In this document: one piece after another, positions 10,780-57,675 of the stretch
Position numbering within the stretch: the first letter of the stretch is position 1
Layout of the letters: each line of letters opens with the position of its first letter
Source: Steinernema hermaphroditum
Lineage: Eukaryota; Nematoda; Chromadorea; Rhabditida; Steinernematidae
DNA: 64,000 bases
Reading direction: 5' to 3'
Assembly (NCBI GenBank): GCA_030435675.1
Contig: CM059622.1
Location: 1,426,001 to 1,490,000, forward strand
Program-made: the position numbers and the translations under genes
The notes under the pieces: generated by a model
The model's input: only the letters and a program-made list of their open reading frames with translations
Database searches by the model: none
What the model was told of the DNA's origin: nothing

Positions 10780-12126
10780 CGATGTCGCCCATATGATCTC
10801 GCTGCAGTGATACAATGGGGCACCTTCGTCGATGGGAATGTTGTCAAATCTCTCTTTTTTTGACATGCGATTGTTAAAGGCGATGATAATCGCACACACG
10901 GGATGGGAAAGGTTGATCGGGGTTATGAATGTGCGCTTCCATGTGGATCCTCCATGGACATGATCTTCGTTTGATTTACGCTGTTTTCAAAATACTGAAA
11001 TACGATTTTCACTCTGAATATTAGCTCAATAGCAAATTTCATTGTTTAATTTGGTATCCCATCATGACTGACTCGTTTTGACGCGAGCATGGCCATACAA
11101 CTACCCAACTAGGAGTACGACCGTAATTCCAACATCACCTTGTAAATGAGAACGTCGCCACCGCCCAACTTCCCTGCGCCGTCAAATGAAGCCGAAGTTC
11201 TAGATAAATTGCATGTTCAACTACATAAATGAAGCAAATTAGTGTAAGTCTAGTCTACAGACTAGTTTCAACCGGTCCACAAACTCACGAAACCGTGAAT
11301 GACCATAATTAAACCTTGTGATCGATGCATTCTTATCTGCGGGGAAGCCGATATTGTGTTCATTTGCCACTACTGGATGCCGGAGGCTAATCAGCAAGAG
11401 GGCCTCGTGGCGCAATGGATAACGCGTCGGTCTACGGAACCGAAGATTGCAGGTTCGAATCCTGCCGAGGTCGAAATTTTTCTTTTCTTGTGAGGGCTGT
11501 AAACCTTCTTCTTTGGCTTGATTATTTGGCCTTTCGGTGCCGTTGAATATGGTTTGTTTCGATCCACGTGTTTCCCATTGGGAAGGCATAATGAACACCT
11601 TCTTTATCGTATCTACTCAAAACAACTTAAACAACTCAAAGTTCCCCATTTATACACGTCCCCTCTTATCGTTGAACGGCTGCCAAACCTCATCTGAAGT
11701 GCACCCGATGTTGTATATGCTTCCCCCTCATCGCAAAACGGCTTTCTATAGTGTTCTTCGATTTTGATCTTCTCTGTGCATCTCTTTGTCTGTCAATATG
11801 ATGCCTCTGCTGGTCATAAATGTGATCAAAAAAGTAACTCTTTCAGCATATCTCTCTTTATGTCACGAATCCTGTCTCCGCTCAAGCAAACTGAAGCGTT
11901 TGCCGTACAAACTGTCCGCTATTCTCACTACGGTTCACTGCACCCCACCCAAATCACTCTCTTATCTATCAAGGGTTACGTTCGTTTTTGAACTTTTATG
12001 TCTTATTATCGCGCCTCTTCTGCTCGATTTGTCTTGTACAGTGTACTTTATTGAACGACTGTACATTGTACAGATAGATATAACTACACGTATTTACATC
12101 GATAAGTCCATGTGCCATTGTCTCCC
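10780..12126. other. Intergenic with a tRNA gene
   Basis: Apart from the tRNA-Arg, this AT-rich stretch holds nothing I can support. A reverse-strand frame at 10780-10960 stays open but is not needed for the gene model. Confidence 0.4.
11401..11473 (+). tRNA. tRNA-Arg (anticodon ACG)
   Basis: 73 nt cloverleaf. Acceptor stem GGCCTCG pairs with CGAGGTC (one G-U). The anticodon stem TCGGT/ACCGA encloses CTACGGA, giving anticodon ACG. The T arm GCAGG-TTCGAAT-CCTGC is perfect, and A and B boxes are canonical. No intron. Intact and probably functional. Confidence 0.97.
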
Positions 12127-27627: not shown

Positions 27628-28050
27628 ATACTGTTGCTGCAGAAGTAAATAATGTGGGAAGAAAGATTCTCTGCAGAGTATGAACACAGCAAGATACACT
27701 TGACGTCAATTGGCCAACGACCGCCAAATTCCCGAGAAGGCCTCCCAAATGACTTTTCGTGGAGAAATTGCACGATTCAGACAGTCATCTTTTGTACTTT
27801 ACCTTTGCAGGACAGTGTTTGTTATCCTCGCTACTTGTCCTTTGCATCTAGAAACTCGACATAGAAATAAGAGCAAATATAGATTTCGGCACTTTTTCAT
27901 AGAATTTCAGCTCCGATACTGACTCCGCTTTTCAGAGAGACCGATAAAAGCACATGGATGAGCGATCATTCCGAAATGGTCTAGACTCGAAGTGTATGTT
28001 TCAGACAGAAGCTGTTGCAGCCCGATCATGTCGCAGGTCAGTTGTTGGAA
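27628..28050 (+). other. Intergenic between FRA10AC1 and the mucin-like gene
   Basis: 3' flank of FRA10AC1 and 5' flank of the mucin-like gene, both on the plus strand. No poly(A) hexamer stands out near 27640. Nothing else seen. Confidence 0.4.
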
Positions 28051-31000
28051 ATGCGACTCCTGAAAGCGGTTGTCTTCTGTGTGGTGCTCTTCGGCAACGC
28101 TGCTGCTGCTACCGACCCAGTCATTGCATCTGAAGTCGATGGTATGAACTTGTTTCTTACGAGCGAATCATTTCTTTTCAGGACATGGAGTGGACCCATC
28201 TACTGCGATTGCGGATTCGAACACTGCCGTCAACTTCGACGGTTTGTTTTTCTTCCTTTACAGTGCCTGAGTAACCTTTCCTTTTCAGACCTTTCAGACT
28301 TCTTGATGCCTCGGGTGCGAATGAACATTAAGGGAATGGAAAACGCAGGCTCTGAGGAGGAATCGATATTCGAAGCTGCGACGACAGCGACTGCGACAAA
28401 TACCACGGCCAATGCGACAAACAGCACTATGTCGACTACAAAAACCAGTGCAGCTTCGACGATAACATCCAGTACCAAACCGATCGCGAATACCAGTACT
28501 CCGACGAACGCCTCGGTGATTACGGCTGCTCCGACGAACGCCTCGTCGACTACTAGTACTCCGGCGAACGCCTCGTCGACTACCAGTACCCCGGCGAACG
28601 CCTCGACGACAACGGATACTGCGACGAATGCCTCAACTACCAGTACTCCGACGAATGCCTCGACTACGGCTACTCCGACAAACGCCTCGGTGACTACGGC
28701 TACTCCGACGAACGCCTCGGTGACTACGGCTATTCCGACGAACGCCTCGGTGACTACGGCTACTTCGACGAATGCCTCGACTACGGCTACTCCGACAAAC
28801 GTCTCGGTCACTACGGCTACTCCGACGAACGCCTCGGTGACTACGGCTACTTCGACGAATGCCTCGACTACGGCTACTCCGACAAACGCTTCGGTGACTA
28901 CGGCTACTCCGACGAACGCCTCGACGAATGCGGCTATTCCGACGAACGCCTCGGTGATTACGGCTATTCCGACGAACGCCTCGACTACGGATGCTCCGAC
29001 GAATGCCTCAACGATTACGGCTACTCCGACGAACGCCTCGGTGACTACGGCTACTCCGACGAACGCCTCGACTACGGATGCTCCGACGAATGCCTCAACG
29101 ATTACGGCTACTCCGACGAACGCCTCGGTGACTACGGCTACTCCGACAAACGTCTCGGTCACTACGGCTACTCCGACGAACGCCTCGGTGACTACGGCTA
29201 CTTCGACGAATGCCTCGACTACGGATGCTCCGACAAATGCCTCAACGATTACGGCTACTCCGACGAACGCCTCGGTGACTACGGCTACTCCGACGAACTC
29301 CTCGACGATTGCGGCTATTCCGACGAACGCCTCGCCGACTACGGCTGCTGCGACGAACGCCTCCATGATTGCGGCTGCTGCAACGACCGCCTCAACAAGT
29401 ACGACAAGTACGACTACCAGTACTCCGACGACTACGACAAGTACAACGACGACTACCAGTACTTCGACGACTACTCCGTCGACTATGACAAGTACGACGA
29501 CGACTACCAGTACTCCGACGACTACGTCAAGTACGACGACCACTACAGGTACTTCGACGACGACGACTACTCCGACGACCACCAGTACTTCGACGACTAC
29601 GACTAGTACGACGACGACTACGTCTACTCCGACGACTACGTCAAGTACGACGACGACTACCAGTACTTCGACGACTACGACTACTTCGACGACTACGACT
29701 ACTCCGACGACTACTACAAGTACGACGACGACTACAACTACTCCGACGACTACGACTACTCCGACTACTCCGACCACTACTAGTACTTCGACGACTACGA
29801 CTAGTACTCCGACGACTACTACAAGTACGACGACTACGACTACTCCGACGACCACCAGTACTTCGACGACTACGACTAGTACGACGACGACTACGAGTAC
29901 GACTACTCCGACGACCACCAGTACTTCGACGACTACGACTACTCCGACGACTACCAGTACTTCGACGACTACGACTAGTACGACGACGACTACGAGTACG
30001 ACTACTCCGACGACCACCAGTACTTCGACGACTACGACTACTCCGACGACCACCAGTACTTCGACGACTACGACTACTCCGACGACTACCAGTACTTCGA
30101 CGACTACGACTAGTACGACGACTACGACTACTCCGACCACTACTACTACTTCTACGACAACGACTACGACTAGCACGACTACGACTACAACTACTCCGAC
30201 GACTACGACTAGCACGACGACGACGACGACTACGACTACGACTACGACTACTCCGACGACTACCAGTACTTCGACGACTACGACTAGCACGACGACGACC
30301 ACGACTACTCCGACCACTACTAGTACTTCGACGTCTACGACTACTCCGACGACTACGACTAGTACGACGAAGATTCCTTATGTGACGATCCCTACTGAGT
30401 CAACAGCGGAGGAGGAGGATCCGTTTCCGGATGAAGAACCCAATTTCGAGAACCCGATCAGCAGTGGAACGCCGGAACCGTGAGTTTCTCAAAGTAGAAA
30501 CGTTTTCTACTTGCTTTTTTCAGCGAAGAAGCGAATCTTACGCTTGTTGTTATCATTCCCATTGTGGTCGTCTTCTCCGTAATCGTCGTTGGTTCGATCA
30601 TAGGATTCTTCTTGTGGCGCCGTCACAGAAAGCGCAAGGAGGAGAAGGAGCGCGCCAACGCCAAGCCCATGTTCGCCGGAGCGCCACCAAGCGATGTTAG
30701 TCGTAGTTCGAAGCGTTCGGGTGGAGCGGCAAGACCGCGACTCGGTGGGCCGAGTAAGTCGGGAGAGACCGTCGCTCCGGAGAGGAGGTTTGCTACAGGC
30801 CCTAACGCCCCACAGCATTTGCCGGCCAAGGCTTTCAAGCATATGGGACCGATCCATCTTCGTCCGCTTGCGGAACAGGTATGCTTGCCTTGCGAACTAT
30901 TTAGCAATTAACTTTGTTTAGGCGCACCTTTTCGAATCCGTGAGGAGTGAGTCTGTATCGGATAGCGCCAATGTCCATTTTGATGAAGAGAACAATCTTG

Positions 31001-31089: not shown

Positions 31090-31402
31090 GATCACAGACC
31101 AGTTCGTGCTTTGTCACTGATATCGTGCATTCGGTAAAGTTTCTTTTTCCATTTATGAGAAGGGCATATCTGCGGGGAGGCACAAAGTTTCGAATTTTGC
31201 AGAAATATCGAAGCCGAGCGGCTCGAGCGAGGGACCGTATAAACATGCGAACAGAAAGGTCATATTCTAGACGTGCTACTCTGCAGAAAAAGTAGACTTG
31301 TCTAGAATTTTGCTATCTAAGACATTCAGATGCAGAGTTCTGTTCGAAGAACAAAGTTGTACATATTGGACTGACAGTGAAGCCACTCTCTTTGTAGCAT
31401 TC

Positions 31403-31612
31403 TTAGCAGAAGTCGAGATGGCAGCGCTTTACGCGGTTCAACGGCACTTGTCCGATGGCCCCGGATTCGTCGGACTGACTGGAACGCACTCCTTGGGAAG
31501 TTGGGACTGAAAGGACAGAGATTACACCGCTGCGGAGTGACCATTAGTCACCAGAAAGAGCGGCTCCGAAGAAGGCGACGATGGCGAAGAGGAGGAAGAA
31601 GAAGCGGACCAT
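31403..31612 (-). CDS. CHLDFC peptide precursor, copy A (54 aa, VPTS type)
   Basis: Two exons, 31612-31552 and 31506-31403 (44 nt excluded as intron between them is 45 nt, GTGACT...CTTTCAG, phase 1). Exon 1 is the signal peptide MVRFFFLLFAIVAFFGAALS. Exon 2 is a 34-residue pro-part starting VPTSQGVRSS and ending LNRVKR-CHLDFC then stop. A Lys-Arg site, as cut by kexin-type proprotein convertases, would free the hexapeptide CHLDFC with a Cys at each end, able to close a disulfide ring. The encoded precursor is identical to copy F. Divergent partner of copy B. I do not recognise the family; a secreted signalling or defence peptide is the inference. Confidence 0.8.
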
Positions 31613-31976
31613 GGTGGGAGGAAGGACTTATCGGATGGCTGAAGAAGGTGCCACTCTTTAAGAGCTCATCCGAACAAGGAAGCTCTGTGTGATCTTCTGG
31701 TCAAACAGGTTATTCCGATCGTAGTTGCGACCTTTCGGCGATTTTATATAATTTTAAGATCAGCGCAGAGATCGAAACGTTTTTGCAAATCGCGAATTTC
31801 GCGTTTTTTCGCCGATTTCGAAGGAAAAGGGAAGCGAAATCTTTTTTTTGCGCTCCGCCAGAGATCGCTTTTTTGCTTTTGTGACCTGTTTCCGAAAAAG
31901 ACGATATCGTACTTCCTCTATGGAAGCTGTATTTAAGCAGTTCTGCGGTCAAATCCCCATCGATTTGGCTGTCATC
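31613..31976. promoter_or_regulatory. Bidirectional promoter of peptide pair A/B
   Basis: 364 bp between the two start codons, almost identical in all three pairs (34112-34475 and, inverted, 35793-36156). Core-promoter-like AT boxes sit about 45 bp before each ATG: TATTTAAG near 31930 for copy B and CTCTTTAAGAG near 31655 for copy A. A central TTATATAATTTTAAGATC lies at 31743. Also contains the near-palindrome TCGCGAATTTCGCG and repeated TTTCG words. Confidence 0.6.
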
Positions 31977-32179
31977 ATGGTCCGCTTCCTCCTCTTCGTC
32001 CTCGCCATCGTCGCTTTCTTCGGAGCCGCTCTTGCTGGTAGCTAAAAGCTCTTCCAAAGTCAACTCTATCCCCAATTTCAGGCGTAGAGCAGCAGCCTGA
32101 TCATCCCCTCACTGCTGCCGAACAGCCCGGCGAGGTCCCACGTATCCGCGCCAAACGCTGCCACCTCGATTTCTGTTGA
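31977..32179 (+). CDS. CHLDFC peptide precursor, copy B (52 aa, VEQQ type)
   Basis: Exons 31977-32037 and 32082-32179, intron of 44 nt in the same position and phase as copy A. Signal peptide MVRFLLFVLAIVAFFGAALA, pro-part GVEQQPDHPLTAAEQPGEVP, then RIRAKR and the terminal CHLDFC. The pro-part shares nothing with the VPTS type except the end, while the signal peptide and hexapeptide are nearly the same: the two ends are conserved and the middle is free. A poly(A) signal AATAAA lies near 32281. Confidence 0.82.
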
Positions 32180-32545
32180 AGAACTGCTCCAAAATCTGCC
32201 ATTTTCCAAGAATATGGATGTGAAAATGCCTTTCTTATGACCGTATCATGTGTCCCAATGTGCTACCGTACTACCTTCCAATAAATAACTTTCTTTAACC
32301 TCGAAATCTAGGAATAGAATTGGAACATTTGAGATATTCCACACACGATATGATGATGTGATATTCTTCCAAGGCTACTGTATATCGCCATTTCGTAGGA
32401 AGGCATTGGAAATGATGGTTAGCATTGTTTTCAGGAGAACATTGCGGTGCACAACAATTCCAAATTGTCACAATTTTGCATCGCAAAGCGAAGAAGAAAC
32501 TTTATTAAATCTGAAAATTGCCAAGAACAACCATAATCTTCAAGG

Positions 32546-33496
32546 ATGCAAGGCATCTCCCACTTCTTTGACGTTAGCAACTCAGCAATGGCTTGGCAGG
32601 CGTGGACGGAAACACTGATGCCCCAAAGCGACGCCTACGATGTCCACTACGCACTCCTCAGTCCCGTCTTCGCCACACGCGTCGCCGCCGTCGCCAAGTA
32701 CGTCCGAGAACGAATGCCCCCGAAGCTCGTCGAGAATAATCGCTTCATCGCCTCCTTGAACACCTCGGATGTGCCCGAAACGGGACCCTACGGCGCTCTG
32801 GTTAACAGTGCCGTCGAATTCGTGAAGCTTGTGGTGCTGGTCCACGCTCGCACGGATCCTATGGTAGTCGCCCACTTCTTCAACGAGCTCCAGCGCTCTA
32901 TGGACGTTCTCGATGAACAGAAGAAGCTGAGGAGCGTCGAGGAGGAGAAGCAGGAGCTGAGGTTGGAGGGCTGGGCGGAGAACTACGAGAAGCTGCTGAA
33001 GAGGAAGGAGGCCGAGGTCGAGTCGGCCCGGAAGCAGATGGAGCAGCAGGAAAGAAGGATCCAAAAGCTGAAGCAAGAAGGGGCGAATAGGGTGGAAGAG
33101 CTCGAGAAGAGGCTGGATCAGGAGAGCAGAAGAAGTGGCCAGCTGAAGGCGGACCTCGAGGAGGAGATCCTGTGGTTGAGGGAGAACGCGAGCAGCCTCG
33201 AAGAAGAGAACCTAGATCTCAAGGAGGAGCTGATGGATCTGGAGGAGAAGATCAAGAAGCTCGTGAAGAAGAGAGAAGAAGAGAACGAGCTGGGACGAGA
33301 ATTGGTTGAAGCCCTCGAAGAGAAGGTTCTAAAAGGACAAAAAGAGTTGGGCAAAGAAGAGGAGCGGAGAATCAACGCAGTTCACGAGTTGAAGCAGAAG
33401 GTGAAGAGGTTGCAACTGCAGGTGCTGCATTATCAGAGGGCTACCGAGAAGTTGCAGCTGTCTTACAACACGCTTCAAAAGCTCTTGTTGAAATGA
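32546..33496 (+). CDS. Intronless coiled-coil protein (316 aa)
   Basis: Single open exon with AATAAA at 33541. Residues 1-115 form a mixed, probably globular region (with LLSPVFATRVAAVAKYVRER and SAVEFVKLVVLVHARTD). Residues 120-310 are a nearly unbroken Glu/Lys/Arg/Leu heptad pattern, a long coiled coil. M1 or the Met 14 codons later (MAWQAWTETL) could be the start. It lies between peptide pairs A/B and C/D and is absent between C/D and E/F. The lack of introns among intron-rich neighbours may mean retroposition. Family not recognised; coiled-coil similarity alone is uninformative. Confidence 0.7.
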   Translation: MQGISHFFDVSNSAMAWQAWTETLMPQSDAYDVHYALLSPVFATRVAAVAKYVRERMPPKLVENNRFIASLNTSDVPETGPYGALVNSAVEFVKLVVLVHARTDPMVVAHFFNELQRSMDVLDEQKKLRSVEEEKQELRLEGWAENYEKLLKRKEAEVESARKQMEQQERRIQKLKQEGANRVEELEKRLDQESRRSGQLKADLEEEILWLRENASSLEEENLDLKEELMDLEEKIKKLVKKREEENELGRELVEALEEKVLKGQKELGKEEERRINAVHELKQKVKRLQLQVLHYQRATEKLQLSYNTLQKLLLK

Positions 33497-33901
33497 GCGT
33501 CTCCTTGTATAGTTCGTCTTGTGTTTATCGTTAATTTGGCAATAAATAGTGTTGTATGAATATCGGTGTATCGGTGGTCTTCTTCGACCGATTGTTAAGG
33601 TGATGCTTAGGGTTGGTATTCGAGCCAAAAAAAACGGCGAGTCATCGAAACAGAGTCACCCCTAAGATTACTATCCTTGACAGGAAACTGGAGAAATAGC
33701 CTAACCGTCGATCAGACGAATGCTTTGAAGAGAGACTTAGATCCTGTGTGACGTTTCTTTATTTGATCATCTAGTGCATTTCAGACCACTAGGCTTCATT
33801 TTCAATCCAGCTTAAATGCATACATAGGAACTAGCCAGTAACATAACAGGTAAATTAGACGCAGATTTCACAAAAAATGCTTGTTTTGTTTGCGAATCAT
33901 C
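33497..33901. other. Intergenic
   Basis: 3' flank of the coiled-coil gene with AATAAA at 33541, a short repeat fragment near 33600 (AGGGTTGGTATTCGAG) related to 19056-19122, and the 3' flank of peptide copy C, which diverges from the copies A and F flanks right after the stop codon. Confidence 0.5.
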
Positions 33902-34111
33902 TTAGCAGAAGTCGAGGTGGCAGCGCTTGGCGCGGTTCAACGGCACTTGTCCGATGACCCCGGATTCGTCGGACTGACTGGAACGCACTCCTAGGGAAGT
34001 TGGGACTGAAAGGACACAGATTACACCGCTGCGGAGTGACCAATAGTCACCGGAAAGAGCGGCTCCGAAGAAGGCGACGATGGCGAAGAGGAGGAAGAAG
34101 AAGCGGACCAT
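33902..34111 (-). CDS. CHLDFC peptide precursor, copy C (54 aa, VPTS type)
   Basis: Exons 34111-34051 and 34005-33902. Same signal peptide as copy A. The pro-part differs at three places (Leu for Gln after VPTS, Val for Ala, Ala for Val before KR), ending LNRAKR-CHLDFC. The last changes keep the Lys-Arg site and the hexapeptide. Divergent partner is copy D. Confidence 0.8.
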   Translation of the reverse strand: MVRFFFLLFAIVAFFGAALSGDYWSLRSGVICVLSVPTSLGVRSSQSDESGVIGQVPLNRAKRCHLDFC

Positions 34112-34475
34112 GGTGGGAGGAAGGACTTATCGGATGGCTGAAGAAGGTGCCACTCTTTAAGAGCTCATCCGAACAAGGAAGCTCTGTGTGATCTTCTGGT
34201 CAAACAGGTTATTCCGATCGTAGTTGCGACCTTTCGGCGATTTTATATAATTTTAAGATCAGCGCAGAGATCGAAACGTTTTTGCAAATCGCGAATTTCG
34301 CGTTTTTTCGCCGATTTCGAAGGAAAAGGGAAGCGAAATCTTTTTTTTGCGCTCCGCCAGAGATCGCTTTTTTGCTTTTGTGACCTGTTTCCGAAAAAGA
34401 CGATATCGTACTTCCTCTATGGAAGCTGTATTTAAGCAGTTCTGCGGTCAAATCCCCATCGATTTGGCTGTCATC
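34112..34475. promoter_or_regulatory. Bidirectional promoter of peptide pair C/D
   Basis: Practically the same sequence as 31613-31976, including both AT boxes and the TCGCGAATTTCGCG element. Confidence 0.6.
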
Positions 34476-34678
34476 ATGGTCCGCTTCCTCCTCTTCGTCC
34501 TCGCCATCGTCGCTTTCTTCGGAGCCGCTCTTGCTGGTAGCTAAAAGCTCTTCCAAAGTCAACTCTATCCCCAATTTCAGGCGTAGAGCAGCAGCCTGAT
34601 CATCCCCTCACTGCTGCCGAACAGCTTGGCGAGGTTCCACGAATCCGTGCCAAACGCTGCCACCTCGATTTCTGTTGA
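34476..34678 (+). CDS. CHLDFC peptide precursor, copy D (52 aa, VEQQ type)
   Basis: Exons 34476-34536 and 34581-34678. Identical signal peptide to copy B; the pro-part has Leu for Pro in AAEQ(P/L)GEVP; ends RIRAKR-CHLDFC. Two of the codon differences from copy B are silent (GTT/GTC, CGA/CGT), which hints at selection on the protein. Confidence 0.82.
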
Positions 34679-35589
34679 AGAACTGCTCCAAAATCTGCCC
34701 TTTTCCAAGAAGATGGATGTGAAAATGCCTTTCCCAGTGTGCTACCGTACTACCTTCCAATAAATAACTTTTTTCTTTGGAAATTTTATTGAAATTTTAT
34801 TTATTGAATAGGAGATATCGTGCCCACGATCCGATGGTGCGGCATTCTTCCAAGGCTACTGTAGCTGAACTTCTCCATCACCATCTTATAGGAAGGGATT
34901 AGGAAGCAGTTCTGCGATAAAATTCTCTAATTTTTGTATTTTGCTCCTGTAATTTGTGGTGTCCGAGATAGGGTGACTTCTCGAAGAAATTAGGCACCTG
35001 AAGATTGAGGCAGCGCGCGGCAAGAAGCCAGAGGACGTTGGTTAAATATGGGGTGCGACAACATGAAAAATGTTAAATATCGTAATAAAATTCACAATTC
35101 ATGGGAACTGAATTTACACTCACTCAGCACTTTAAACTTTTGTCGTAATAACAACCCTCTATGAAGATTCACTCTCCGATTTTTTCATACGCTACACATA
35201 TGAGTATTTCCATATTTTCGTCACTTTTCGGAGCGTGGCCCCGCGCTTGCACTAAGGGGATAACTCGAGATCACTTCGTGTCTTGGACACCAAAAACTAC
35301 AGGAGCAGAACACAAAAAAATAGATAATTTCTCGCAGAACTGCTTCCTAATACCTTCCTATAAGATGGTGATAGAGCAGTTCAGCTACAGTAACCTTGGA
35401 AGAATGCCACATGATCGGATCGTGTGCACGATATCTCGTATTCTCTAAATAAATTTCCAAAGAAAATTTCCGAAAAAAGTTATTTATTGGAAGGTAGTAC
35501 GGTAGCACACTGGGACACATGAATACGGTCATACGAAAGGCAGTTTCGCATCTATCTTCTTGGAAAAGGGCAGATTTCGGAGCAGTTCT
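34679..35589. other. Centre of the inverted duplication, between copies D and E
   Basis: Two inverted copies of the VEQQ-type 3' flank (each with AATAAATAACTT near its gene) around a unique AT-rich stretch (about 34976-35277). No gene. Confidence 0.6.
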
Positions 35590-35792
35590 TCAACAGAAAT
35601 CGAGGTGACAGCGTTTGGCGCGGATAAGTGGGACCTCGCCGGGCTGTTCGGCAGCAGTGAGGGGATGATCAGGCTGCTGCTCTACGCCTGAAATTGGGGA
35701 TAGAGTTGACTTTGGAAGAGCCTTTAGCTACCAGCAAGAGCGGCTCCGAAGAAAGCGACGATGGCGAGGACGAAGAGGAGGAAGCGGACCAT
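35590..35792 (-). CDS. CHLDFC peptide precursor, copy E (52 aa, VEQQ type)
   Basis: Exons 35792-35732 and 35687-35590, on the reverse strand. Differs from copy B at one residue (Leu for Arg in EVP(R/L)IRAKR); the signal peptide, Lys-Arg site and CHLDFC are the same. Its intron has AAAGGC for AAAAGC after the donor, otherwise unchanged. Confidence 0.82.
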
Positions 35793-36156
35793 GATGACAG
35801 CCAAATCGATGGGGATTTGACCGCAGAACTGCTTAAATACAGCTTCCATAGAGGAAGTACGATATCGTCTTTTTCGGAAACAGGTCACAAAAGCAAAAAA
35901 GCGATCTCTGGCGGAGCGCAAAAAAAAGATTTCGCTTCCCTTTTCCTTCGAAATCGGCGAAAAAACGCGAAATTCGCGATTTGCAAAAACGTTTCGATCT
36001 CTGCGCTGATCTTAAAATTATATAAAATCGCCGAAAGGTCGCAACTACGATCGGAATAACCTGTTTGACCAGAAGATCACACAGAGCTTCCTTGTTCGGA
36101 TGAGCTCTTAAAGAGTGGCACCTTCTTCAGCCATCCGATAAGTCCTTCCTCCCACC
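35793..36156. promoter_or_regulatory. Bidirectional promoter of peptide pair E/F
   Basis: Reverse complement of the A/B and C/D promoters with very few changes. The length between the start codons, 364 bp, is the same in all three. Confidence 0.6.
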
Positions 36157-36366
36157 ATGGTCCGCTTCTTCTTCCTCCTCTTCGCCATCGTCGCCTTCTT
36201 CGGAGCCGCTCTTTCTGGTGACTAATGGTCACTCCGCAGCGGTGTAATCTCTGTCCTTTCAGTCCCAACTTCCCAAGGAGTGCGTTCCAGTCAGTCCGAC
36301 GAATCCGGGGCCATCGGACAAGTGCCGTTGAACCGCGTAAAGCGCTGCCATCTCGACTTCTGCTAA
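36157..36366 (+). CDS. CHLDFC peptide precursor, copy F (54 aa, VPTS type)
   Basis: Exons 36157-36217 and 36263-36366. Protein identical to copy A, and the 3' flank (AAGAATGCTACAAAGAGAGT) also matches that of A, so F derives from A, or the two were homogenised. Confidence 0.82.
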
Positions 36367-36690
36367 GAATGCTACAAAGAGAGTGGCTTCACTGTCAGTC
36401 CAATATGTGTGTTCTTCAAGCAAGCCCCGCATCTGAATGTGTCTCAGATATTAAATCCTAATTGAAAGATCGTTTCCCTTTTCCATAAATTTATTATTGA
36501 AACAAGCTGATTTATCACTCTACAACGCATCATTACCAAGCCATCTTCATCAATTTCTTGTGGCAGGAAGACCATGATCGTACGCCGTGACCGTGGAGAC
36601 AACGGCAGATGCAGATGCAAGGCATACATTCACAATTTATTAAAACAGAAAACATAAACAACAACAGCAAGATCCTAAAGGGTTTTCTTT

Positions 36691-41995: not shown

Positions 41996-44496
41996 ATGCG
42001 TCTTCGCTGTCTTCTGCTCCTTCTGGCGGTGCTTCTTGTGGCCGATGCCGAAAAGTCGGAGCCGGAAAAGGTCGACATAGAGGCTGAGGAGTTCACTTCA
42101 AAGCGGTACTGTTTGCTTGATTAAGGATATCAAAGATATCGTATCATTCTTACTACGTATTAGGCATCCTATGCACTTCCAAGCATTTAGATTTAGTTTT
42201 ATATTTGCTTCACTCAGTACGAATATTTTTTTTGAGTGGCTGGGACGGACCTGATTAGCCAATTTACACTATTTACTCGATTGAAATGCTACGTTTTGGA
42301 TGCTTTTTTTCATCTTTTTAAAGCGTTTCTGAGTATAAGTGCAAGAAGAGGACTCATCGATTCGAGTACGCATGGTGTGTATTCCCATGGAAGGACTTAT
42401 GATGATGTGCACGGATGGCCGAGTGGTCTAAGGCGCCAGACTCAAGCGAGAGCTTAACGCGACGGAGCGTTCTGGTATCGGTATCGATGCGTGGGTTCGA
42501 ATCCCACTCCGTGCAAGAACTTTTTCATTTTGCAGTGATTACTTATGTCGCTGATTTTTCCAAACCTTTAAGACCACAGGCCACGGTTGACTCGTGGAAA
42601 GTGCTTACAGGCTAATCCAATAAAGATTCAGCTGGTTCAGCCTTTGTTTTGCAGCTTTATTTCCAACTGTTTGCCATTATAATGAAAGTTTATTTAGCTA
42701 AGGGGGTTCCATCATTTAGCTAACAATGTCAAGTGACCTTTGCTAGTTTTCGATCTATCTAAGTCGCTTTGCACGTCAGGGTCATATGAACAAAGATACA
42801 TGTTGGATGCGACTGTAAAAGACATGGGCCCTTTCGAAAGAAGAGTCTGTGGATACGGCAACTGCACTTTGGGTGCTGTTCTTATTTTTAGATGCTTTCT
42901 CATAAAATAAGATACGGTGCTCTTGAACAAAGCTTCTAGAACGAGTTTAGAGACCTTCTAGAACATATTCTTAGATGTGTGATATCTTCTTTTATTGAGG
43001 TTTCCTAAAATTTGGTCCATTTTACAGCTTCCTGGAGTTGTTTTAATCGTTTTAGATAGCATTCTTAGAGTAGGTCCATGGTGTGTTTACAGAATTAATT
43101 GGACGACCGATGTTGACCGTTCACTCCGACGAGATGAGCAATCGGTCACAAGAGGGCCCACTCAAGACGAACCGCTTCCAAACAGCTGTGAACAACTAAC
43201 TTGAACCAAACCGGCCAGAAGTGTTTAGTGTGTAATGAGTCGCAAACATAAGATATAGTTAGAATAAAGGGTGACCCGCTAATTTCATTGCAACTGAAAT
43301 GACGCCAAGGAGCGAAGCGTAGCGAGAAGGAGGCCCTATATACTTGATTGGTGCTTATATCTGCGTGCAAACTTATGATTTTGCAAAAGAAATCGTAAAT
43401 CCCAAATTTGGCGCGAAATAAAAATTATTGCTTCTGCTGCTATTCGAATCCAGAACTAAAGTCTAACATTCAAAAGTGTTGCCCTTCCACCGCCAGTAGG
43501 CTTTTGCATGTCGTATTAGCGAAATGATATAACCCCAATAGTAAAATTAAAAGTAACAGTGCTGTTGCTGCAAAGCCCCCCTTCACCACCTACTTATTTA
43601 GACTGAACGACTTCGGAGACTACTTCGATGGCGTATCCTATCCCTCTGCCCCTCCCGCCCAACCATACGGCTATCAACCCTATCGCCAGCCTCCCCAACA
43701 AACCCAATTCAACCGTTACCAAGTGGCTCCTCTCCCGGCGCCTCCCATGAACAACTACGGCAACTATCAGAACATGGGCTATGGACAGCGTCAGAACACC
43801 TTCTTCGACGTCATTCGCGACACTGTCCGTCGGGTTGACGACCGCCTCTCTGAGATGCCAACTGGTAGGCTGAGGTACAGTTCGATTACAAATCAGTTCG
43901 CTATTCAGTGCCTGGCAACGTCGCCATCCAAACCAACAACGGCTTCTTGGTGGAGAACGAAGAGGAGGCCGTTAAGAGGACACTTAGGGGTGGGGTCCCG
44001 CGAAGAATGCCTGCTTCTTATGACTTCTCGGCTAGCGTTTCCCAGGGGCAGGGATTCTACATGTCCAACCGAGGGTATACCTACATGGGATATATTGAGC
44101 GTCAGGTGAGTGACGCCACTCCATCCAATGCCCATAAAAGTCTTTCAGGTCAGACAGTACCCAATCATGATCTACACCCTAGTCCAATGCGTGCCCTGTC
44201 AACGCGCCAAGCACATGCTGGCCATATCCTACCCTGACATCAGAAGTCACTTTCTCGAAATTACCGGAAACGAAGATTGGCAAAGACAGCTTCAGGTGGG
44301 TTCCTTCACGTGAGGCTACGGTAGGCACTGTCGCGGTGTTCAGGTCGATCTGCACCACCTAACCGGAGCGGTCACCTTCCCCTACGTCTTCGTGTGTGGC
44401 TCATACATCGGCGGCTCCTCCGACCTGATGCAACTCCACCAAACGGGACAGCTTCGGCAGATGGTGAACGCCTGTAGTCGAAAGGCGAAGCTCTGA
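41996..44496 (+). CDS. Secreted glutaredoxin-domain protein (289 aa)
   Basis: Five exons: 41996-42105, 43602-43864, 43909-44105, 44149-44295, 44344-44496; all phases fit, although the first donor (GTACTG) is weak. Signal peptide MRLRCLLLLLAVLLVADA. Residues 37-120 are rich in Tyr, Pro, Gln and Asn (PYGYQPYRQPPQQ). The C-terminal glutaredoxin/thioredoxin fold has the redox pair Cys-Val-Pro-Cys (residues 204-207, in YTLVQCVPCQRAKHML), the cis-Pro of TFPYVFV (252) and the glutathione-loop GG of YIGGSSDLMQL (262-263). It would therefore act on disulfides in the secretory pathway or outside the cell. AATAAA at 44514. The 1.5 kb first intron holds a tRNA-Leu gene on the same strand. The pairing of exon 1 with the rest rests on phase only. 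Confidence 0.8.
42106..43601 (+). other. Intron 1 of the glutaredoxin-domain gene
   Basis: 1496 nt, with the tRNA-Leu gene; otherwise AT-rich sequence without recognised content. Confidence 0.55.
42409..42515 (+). tRNA. tRNA-Leu (anticodon CAA) with intron
   Basis: 107 nt. Acceptor GCACGGA pairs with TCCGTGC. Anticodon stem CCAGA with loop CTCAAG gives anticodon CAA (42443-42445). An intron of about 23 nt (about 42447-42469) follows position 37, as usual for nuclear tRNA introns. Then comes TCTGG, a long class II variable arm and the T arm GTGGG-TTCGAAT-CCCAC. Intact. Confidence 0.95.
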
Positions 44497-57603: not shown

Positions 57604-57675
57604 GCCCCTTTAGCTCAGCCGGTAGAGCGTTAGACTTTTAATCTAACGGCCAAGGGTTCGAATCCCTTAGGGGCG
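57604..57675 (+). tRNA. tRNA-Lys (anticodon TTT)
   Basis: Acceptor GCCCCTT with TAGGGGC (one weak pair), D arm AGCTCAGCCGGTAGAGC, anticodon stem TTAGA/TCTAA around CTTTTAA (anticodon TTT), T arm AAGGG-TTCGAAT-CCCTT. No intron. Intact. Flanked on both sides by non-coding spacer (57371-58312). Confidence 0.97.

Follow-up and report, generated by a model that had tools for sequence, protein, structure and literature searches.

Vasopressin, oxytocin and their relatives, including the nematode peptide nematocin, carry a six-residue ring between Cys1 and Cys6, are released from their precursors at a basic site and end in a Pro-x-Gly-amide tail. Urotensin II also features a C-x4-C ring, with aromatic residues, a basic residue at its core and a residue after the ring, and nematode precursors of the FLP and NLP types hold multiple copies of short peptides together with acidic spacers. 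The present analysis concerns six small genes of Steinernema hermaphroditum, a worm described as genetically tractable, whose predicted precursors all end in Lys-Arg (KR) followed by the hexapeptide CHLDFC. The genes are located in a stretch of 64,000 nucleotides, hereafter the window, which corresponds to C2:1426001-1490000 (contig CM059622.1) in a genome of 90.6 Mb and 60 contigs. As judged from sequence, they belong to a real gene family with a predicted peptide product, and we consider it somewhat probable (roughly 55%) that the precursors are secreted and cleaved at KR, releasing CHLDFC as a disulfide-closed messenger.

A pattern search of the window allowing up to three mismatches returned six KRCHLDFC sites, all with 0 mismatches, where 0.11 were expected; none of 100 shuffled windows reached six matches, and a chance origin of the sites is therefore rejected (Table 1). 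Each site closes a predicted two-exon gene, as had been proposed in an earlier sequence-only reading of the window, whose models hold at 6/6 loci: a 61-nt exon 1, a GT...TTTCAG intron (44 nt in the genes named VEQQ type and 45 nt in those named VPTS type) and a product of 52 or 54 aa ending in KRCHLDFC-stop, each model having been picked among several GT-AG options. The precursors read MVRFLLFVLAIVAFFGAALA-GVEQQPDHPLTAAEQPGEVPRIRA-KR-CHLDFC or MVRFFFLLFAIVAFFGAALS-VPTSQGVRSSQSDESGAIGQVPLNRV-KR-CHLDFC, with minor differences among copies. In likeness to the vasopressin/oxytocin family and nematocin, the six genes specify a C-x4-C ring at a basic site of a putatively secreted precursor, but the stop codon directly follows the second Cys in 6/6 genes, so that there is no tail with an amidation signal, and the ring sequence is unrelated. 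No Pfam family scored above its curated cut-off in any of five family proteins (best raw scores 12.2, none, 13.7, 13.8 and none, against cut-offs of at least 22), which argues that the CHLDFC precursors contain no neurophysin.

The six genes form one head-to-head VPTS/VEQQ pair repeated in three units (31361-32246, 33900-34733 and, inverted, 35535-36408). The repeats comprise inverted arms (886 nt at 99% identity, 834 nt at 98%) and a direct pair with 97% identity over 300 nt, and the units are 96-99% identical when aligned with gaps. The 364 bp separating both start codons are identical across all three units, and the coding parts within one type differ by 0 to 7 changes; together this suggests recent duplication accompanied by gene conversion that had its centre in this common middle part. 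The 364-bp stretch is likely to be a shared promoter.

In 9/9 pairs of a VPTS with a VEQQ gene, the codons of KRCHLDFC carry 3-5 synonymous changes and 0 non-synonymous ones. The signal parts of the two types, which have 14/20 residues in common, differ by 1-2 synonymous and 6 non-synonymous changes. Across the six genes, five sites of the 24-nt KRCHLDFC block are variable and every one is synonymous, a pattern with a chance probability of p = 0.0001 to 0.0012 for kappa 1 to 5, provided that the changes are independent. The pro-parts of the two types had been described as unalignable; this does not hold for the eight residues ahead of KR, G-[EQ]-V-P-[RL]-[IN]-R-[AV], which are identical at 4 to 6 of 8 positions in the nine comparisons of a VEQQ with a VPTS gene. 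Owing to this related block, R-[AV]-K-R stands ahead of the hexapeptide in 6/6 window genes, and R-x-K-R is the type of site that constitutes the consensus of furin-type convertases. The S. hermaphroditum genome has 6 matches over the cut-off to the convertase-type P_proprotein domain, for which 1/14 control genomes was also positive (those that carry a name are all prokaryotes).

Genome-wide, the KR-CHLDFC pattern returned 11 matches, namely the six in the window and five in a single gene on another contig, C5, against 0 in the reversed control. This gene, poly-2, was located by the hexapeptide alone and is predicted to consist of two exons with a 47-nt intron, encoding a 227-aa polyprotein. 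Following a hydrophobic start, its units are CHLDFC, CHLDLC, CRLDFC, five copies of CHLDFC, CRLDFC and CQIEFC, preceded by KR in nine cases and NR in one (five read exactly KR-CHLDFC and one NR-CHLDFC). Acidic spacers such as EEEEQIKEEEKPIA lie between the units, and the final CQIEFC stops at the stop codon. Poly-2 has two paralogues on C5. Upstream of it on the same strand, poly-3 holds five units (CLFDFC, CDIDFC, CHFEFC, CRFDFC after KH, and CPMDFC) and ends early. The other paralogue, poly-1, carries a single CDLDFC followed by Glu and a stop. The N-termini of both window and C5 precursors are hydrophobic, with A-L-A or A-L-S ahead of the likely cut, as judged by eye.

Both cysteines are retained in 22/22 hexapeptides (6 in the window, 10 in poly-2, 5 in poly-3 and 1 in poly-1), all of which fit the core C-x-[LFIM]-[DE]-[FL]-C, with H, R, Q, L, D or P at the x position. 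Past residue 25, the cysteines of poly-2 (20/20) and poly-3 (10/10) all fall inside hexapeptides. When the full units of the two genes were compared (8 from poly-2 x 3 from poly-3, few units forming pairs that are not independent), the two Cys codons displayed 28 synonymous and 0 non-synonymous differences. KR is found directly ahead of the hexapeptide in 6/6 window genes and 13/15 units of poly-2 and poly-3, while the additional Arg four residues before the cut is present in 6/6 window genes vs 0/15 of these units. The proposal that the hexapeptide, and not the pro-part, is the conserved unit is supported in the main, both by the synonymous-only change in the window and by the recurrence of the same peptide in a differently built polyprotein. 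The C5 genes make the family better supported than the sequence-only reading could know.

A broken fourth unit at C2:1390226-1390617, from which unit bases 362-782 are gone, offers a view of decay. Its VPTS exon 1 measures 41 nt vs 61 nt in the intact genes, and its remnant endings, AKR-SHLDFC and IRAI-RRHLDFC, have lost Cys1 in 2/2 cases, the direction that would be expected if the cysteines matter, in two cases only. The looser pattern KR/KS-C-xx-[DE]-[FL]-C gave 39 genome matches vs 11 in the reversed control. The two loci account for 20 of the 39; among the remaining 19, the 12 inspected in context (10 KR, 2 KS) included none in a comparable precursor, and the other 7 encode Lys-Ser, not Lys-Arg. 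A CHLDFC-stop at C5:4329853, after RRLSK, resembles the window unit over 22 bases only and was treated as chance: the expected number of such 18-base matches per genome is about 0.7, and it was set aside on this ground, curious as the stop there is. Around a weak match at C4:7466433 (E 0.10), the lone KR-C-x4-C-like reading lay at the far end of the stretch and was considered unrelated.

The C5 locus also features a companion cysteine-pair peptide. The ending KR-KLCNAHNL[IS]CNLWR-stop, unrelated to CHLDFC, closes four open genes of 69-75 aa whose middles are poorly alignable. Per pair, changes in the KR and mature block number 5-8 synonymous and 0-2 non-synonymous, vs 8-16 non-synonymous in the signal part. 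A broken companion copy, in which Tyr occupies the second cysteine position, lies head-to-head with poly-2. The companion genes and poly-1 to poly-3 all start with M-x-G-K, so that a common leader is possible for the C5 genes.

Protein-database searches returned only S. hermaphroditum proteins: the hypothetical protein QR680_007624, the single candidate in its search and a match to a window precursor, and QR680_000164 as the sole return of the other searches (7992 and 7988 candidates scored). The latter fuses the companion gene at 924539 with poly-3 (C5:921062 to 924539), probably as a gene-prediction artefact, and the intact poly-2 itself was not returned from the 5.8-billion-protein database; absence from the database is consequently weak evidence. 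Seven sequence matches in the PDB (E 0.33 to 7) were taken as coiled or acidic look-alikes. A literature text search found neither the string CHLDFC nor the family motif strings. The listed match for HLDFC concerns Pseudomonas in the portion seen, and the match examined for CNAHN/NAHNL is, in the excerpt concerned, part of a German word within a reference; literature on nematode cyclic neuropeptides yielded only an unrelated paper. Within the reach of these searches, the suggestion that the peptide lies outside known families stands. With urotensin II the family has in common a C-x4-C ring with an aromatic residue, but it carries Asp/Glu at the basic position of urotensin. Like FLP/NLP-type precursors, the C5 products begin with a signal-like stretch and repeat a short peptide, with KR ahead of the copies and acid-rich spacers; the CHLDFC family differs from that type by having Cys at both ends, no amidation Gly and no KR directly after each copy.

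Under the interpretation we favour, the genes would be expressed as short precursors that are secreted, relieved of their signal and then cut after Lys-Arg. The freed CHLDFC would close through a Cys1-Cys6 disulfide into a 20-membered ring, with a computed [M+H]+ of 735.259 in the oxidised form, the linear form being 2.016 Da heavier. The ring would act as an extracellular messenger on a receptor that may be the worm's own; the worm's own cells would be the first choice of target and action on the host the second. The product would be delivered by two designs, namely single-copy precursors with the hexapeptide at the C-terminus behind R-[AV]-K-R, and C5 precursors with ten or five copies behind plain KR and acidic spacers, around a ring core C-x-hydrophobic-acidic-Phe-C whose position 2 can change freely. 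The effect of head-to-head pairing and unit duplication would be a higher dose and not a more diverse product. A wider interpretation, to which we give a little less than an even chance, is that of a steinernematid signalling family undescribed before, in which the whole hormone is the naked ring C-x-hydrophobic-acidic-Phe-C, encoded by two unrelated designs (single-copy R-x-K-R head-to-head pairs and ten-copy acidic polyproteins), with KLCNAHNL[IS]CNLWR as a second ring peptide beside the C5 genes, its mature end kept and its pro-part drifting.

Several points weigh against a ring messenger. The case is built on gene sequence, with transcript, peptide and receptor all predicted. The cluster of six genes exists, but as two types in three recent copies, and units so nearly alike contribute little independent evidence, less than had been claimed inside the window. 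Homologues in which the hexapeptide varies and the rest is kept had been named as contrary evidence, and in this respect the C5 genes are mixed. Ring positions 2-3 vary, with a ratio of non-synonymous to synonymous differences per site (pN/pS) of 0.45 between poly-2 and poly-3, and the spacers are recognisably alike; the hexapeptide as a whole has a pN/pS of 0.16 vs 0.24 in the spacer. KR is replaced by NR in one poly-2 unit and by KH in one poly-3 unit. No alignable signal or spacer common to window and C5 precursors was found, and the intron follows 61 nt in the window genes vs 120 nt in the C5 gene, in differing phases, which leaves the common descent of the two groups unproven. Relatives in other worms were not found in the protein-database searches, in which small genes are poorly annotated.

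The C5 hexapeptides are moreover followed by acidic residues (EEEE, EDEE or similar; EE, ED or KE stands next to nearly all copies), with no basic pair directly after them in poly-2 or poly-3, so that dibasic cleavage alone would give peptides of about 20 residues. The true product of the C5 genes might then be an acid-tailed peptide comprising hexapeptide and spacer, such as CHLDFCEEEEQIKEEEKPIA, and the window hexapeptide a cut-down derivative. Constraint on the spacer (pN/pS 0.24 between genes, 0.30 within poly-2) keeps this explanation alive, though we regard it as unlikely: the last poly-2 unit and 6/6 window genes stop at the second Cys, poly-1 stops one residue later, and inside poly-2 the pN/pS of the hexapeptide (0.06) is below that of the spacer (0.30). 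The ring messenger might instead be a host-directed effector, secreted into the insect and acting on an insect receptor and not on worm cells. The species is an insect parasite, local copies were gained recently, the protein-database searches found the family in no other species, and the R-x-K-R of the window genes fits the general secretory route; to our knowledge, no insect peptide has this ring core, and we judge such a role rather unlikely. CNMamide of insects, in the portion of its description seen, has a CHFKIC ring followed by NM-amide (PMC4237046). It has the C-x4-C ring size and His at position 2 in common with CHLDFC, but shows Lys where the CHLDFC family has Asp/Glu; the window rings are without a tail and the His is not conserved on C5, and CNMamide was rejected as a relative by its NM-amide tail and missing acidic residue, as far as that source goes (PMC4237046). 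Alternatively, the polyprotein might stay uncut after secretion, as an acidic repeat protein that uses its Cys pairs for cross-linking or metal binding and has the window genes as short relatives. This would account for the closeness of the two Cys to an acidic residue and frequently a His, and for the 2/15 C5 units without KR. It is improbable in view of the KR in all other units and in 6/6 window genes, of the single-copy window genes with the peptide at the stop codon, and of the inconstant His (other copies have L, D, R, P or Q). That the window genes are non-functional repeats sharing their ending through recent copying would suit the identity of the units and of the intergenic stretch, and is largely refuted: VPTS and VEQQ differ elsewhere and only synonymously in KRCHLDFC, the C5 genes encode the same peptide, and the decayed unit shows how loss appears.

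Table 1. Predicted genes and associated features of the two loci (positions are those of the window unless a contig is named; sites from the pattern search).
Feature	Position	Strand	KRCHLDFC site	Details
VPTS-type gene, unit 1	31403..31612	-	31406-31429(-)	exon 1 31552-31612, intron 31507-31551, exon 2 31403-31506; 54 aa, RVKR-CHLDFC-stop
Intergenic stretch, unit 1, 364 bp	31613..31976	.		TATTTAA at 31930 facing VEQQ gene
VEQQ-type gene, unit 1	31977..32179	+	32153-32176(+)	exon 1 31977-32037, intron 32038-32081, exon 2 32082-32179; 52 aa, RAKR-CHLDFC-stop; AATAAA 32280
VPTS-type gene, unit 2	33902..34111	-	33905-33928(-)	exon 1 34051-34111, intron 34006-34050, exon 2 33902-34005; RAKR-CHLDFC-stop
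Intergenic stretch, unit 2, 364 bp	34112..34475	.		identical to unit 1
VEQQ-type gene, unit 2	34476..34678	+	34652-34675(+)	exon 1 34476-34536, intron 34537-34580, exon 2 34581-34678; RAKR-CHLDFC-stop; AATAAA 34759
VEQQ-type gene, unit 3 (inverted)	35590..35792	-	35593-35616(-)	exon 1 35732-35792, intron 35688-35731, exon 2 35590-35687; RAKR-CHLDFC-stop; AATAAA 35488 (- strand)
Intergenic stretch, unit 3, 364 bp	35793..36156	.		identical to units 1 and 2 once inverted
VPTS-type gene, unit 3	36157..36366	+	36340-36363(+)	exon 1 36157-36217, intron 36218-36262, exon 2 36263-36366; RVKR-CHLDFC-stop
poly-1	C5:915864	-		protein search of genome
poly-2	C5:917278-916548	-		
poly-3	C5:921062	-		protein search of genome
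Companion gene	C5:924539-924312	-		
Companion gene	C5:925127-925348	+		
Companion gene	C5:930575-930793	+		
Companion gene	C5:1492040-1492249	+		
Companion copy, broken	from C5:917850	+		

Other features of the window include a coiled-coil-like open reading frame (ORF) of 316 aa between units 1 and 2 (32546-33496, + strand), of which the ORF list holds no copy between units 2 and 3, and a long mucin-like repeat ORF (28015-30483, +) that is rich in Thr and Ser and includes a TNAS-type array. A 42-codon reading, MRLRCLLLLLAVLLVADAEKSEPEKVDIEAEEFTS-KR-YCLLD-stop (41996-42124, +), may represent a further short secreted precursor whose peptide ends at the stop codon. Three tRNA genes are located at 11401-11473, 42409-42515 and 57604-57675 (all +), the middle one of 107 bases and probably intron-bearing.

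The two loci show why annotation overlooks such genes, the ten-copy gene not having been returned and the five-copy gene being annotated as fused to its neighbour. A six-residue peptide without amidation could be synthesised for trials on receptors of worms or insects, and existing spectra could be searched for its mass. If the ring messenger is real, S. hermaphroditum carries a family of peptide messengers not found elsewhere by the sequence searches made, and one that shows a short peptide held constant while its precursor changes.

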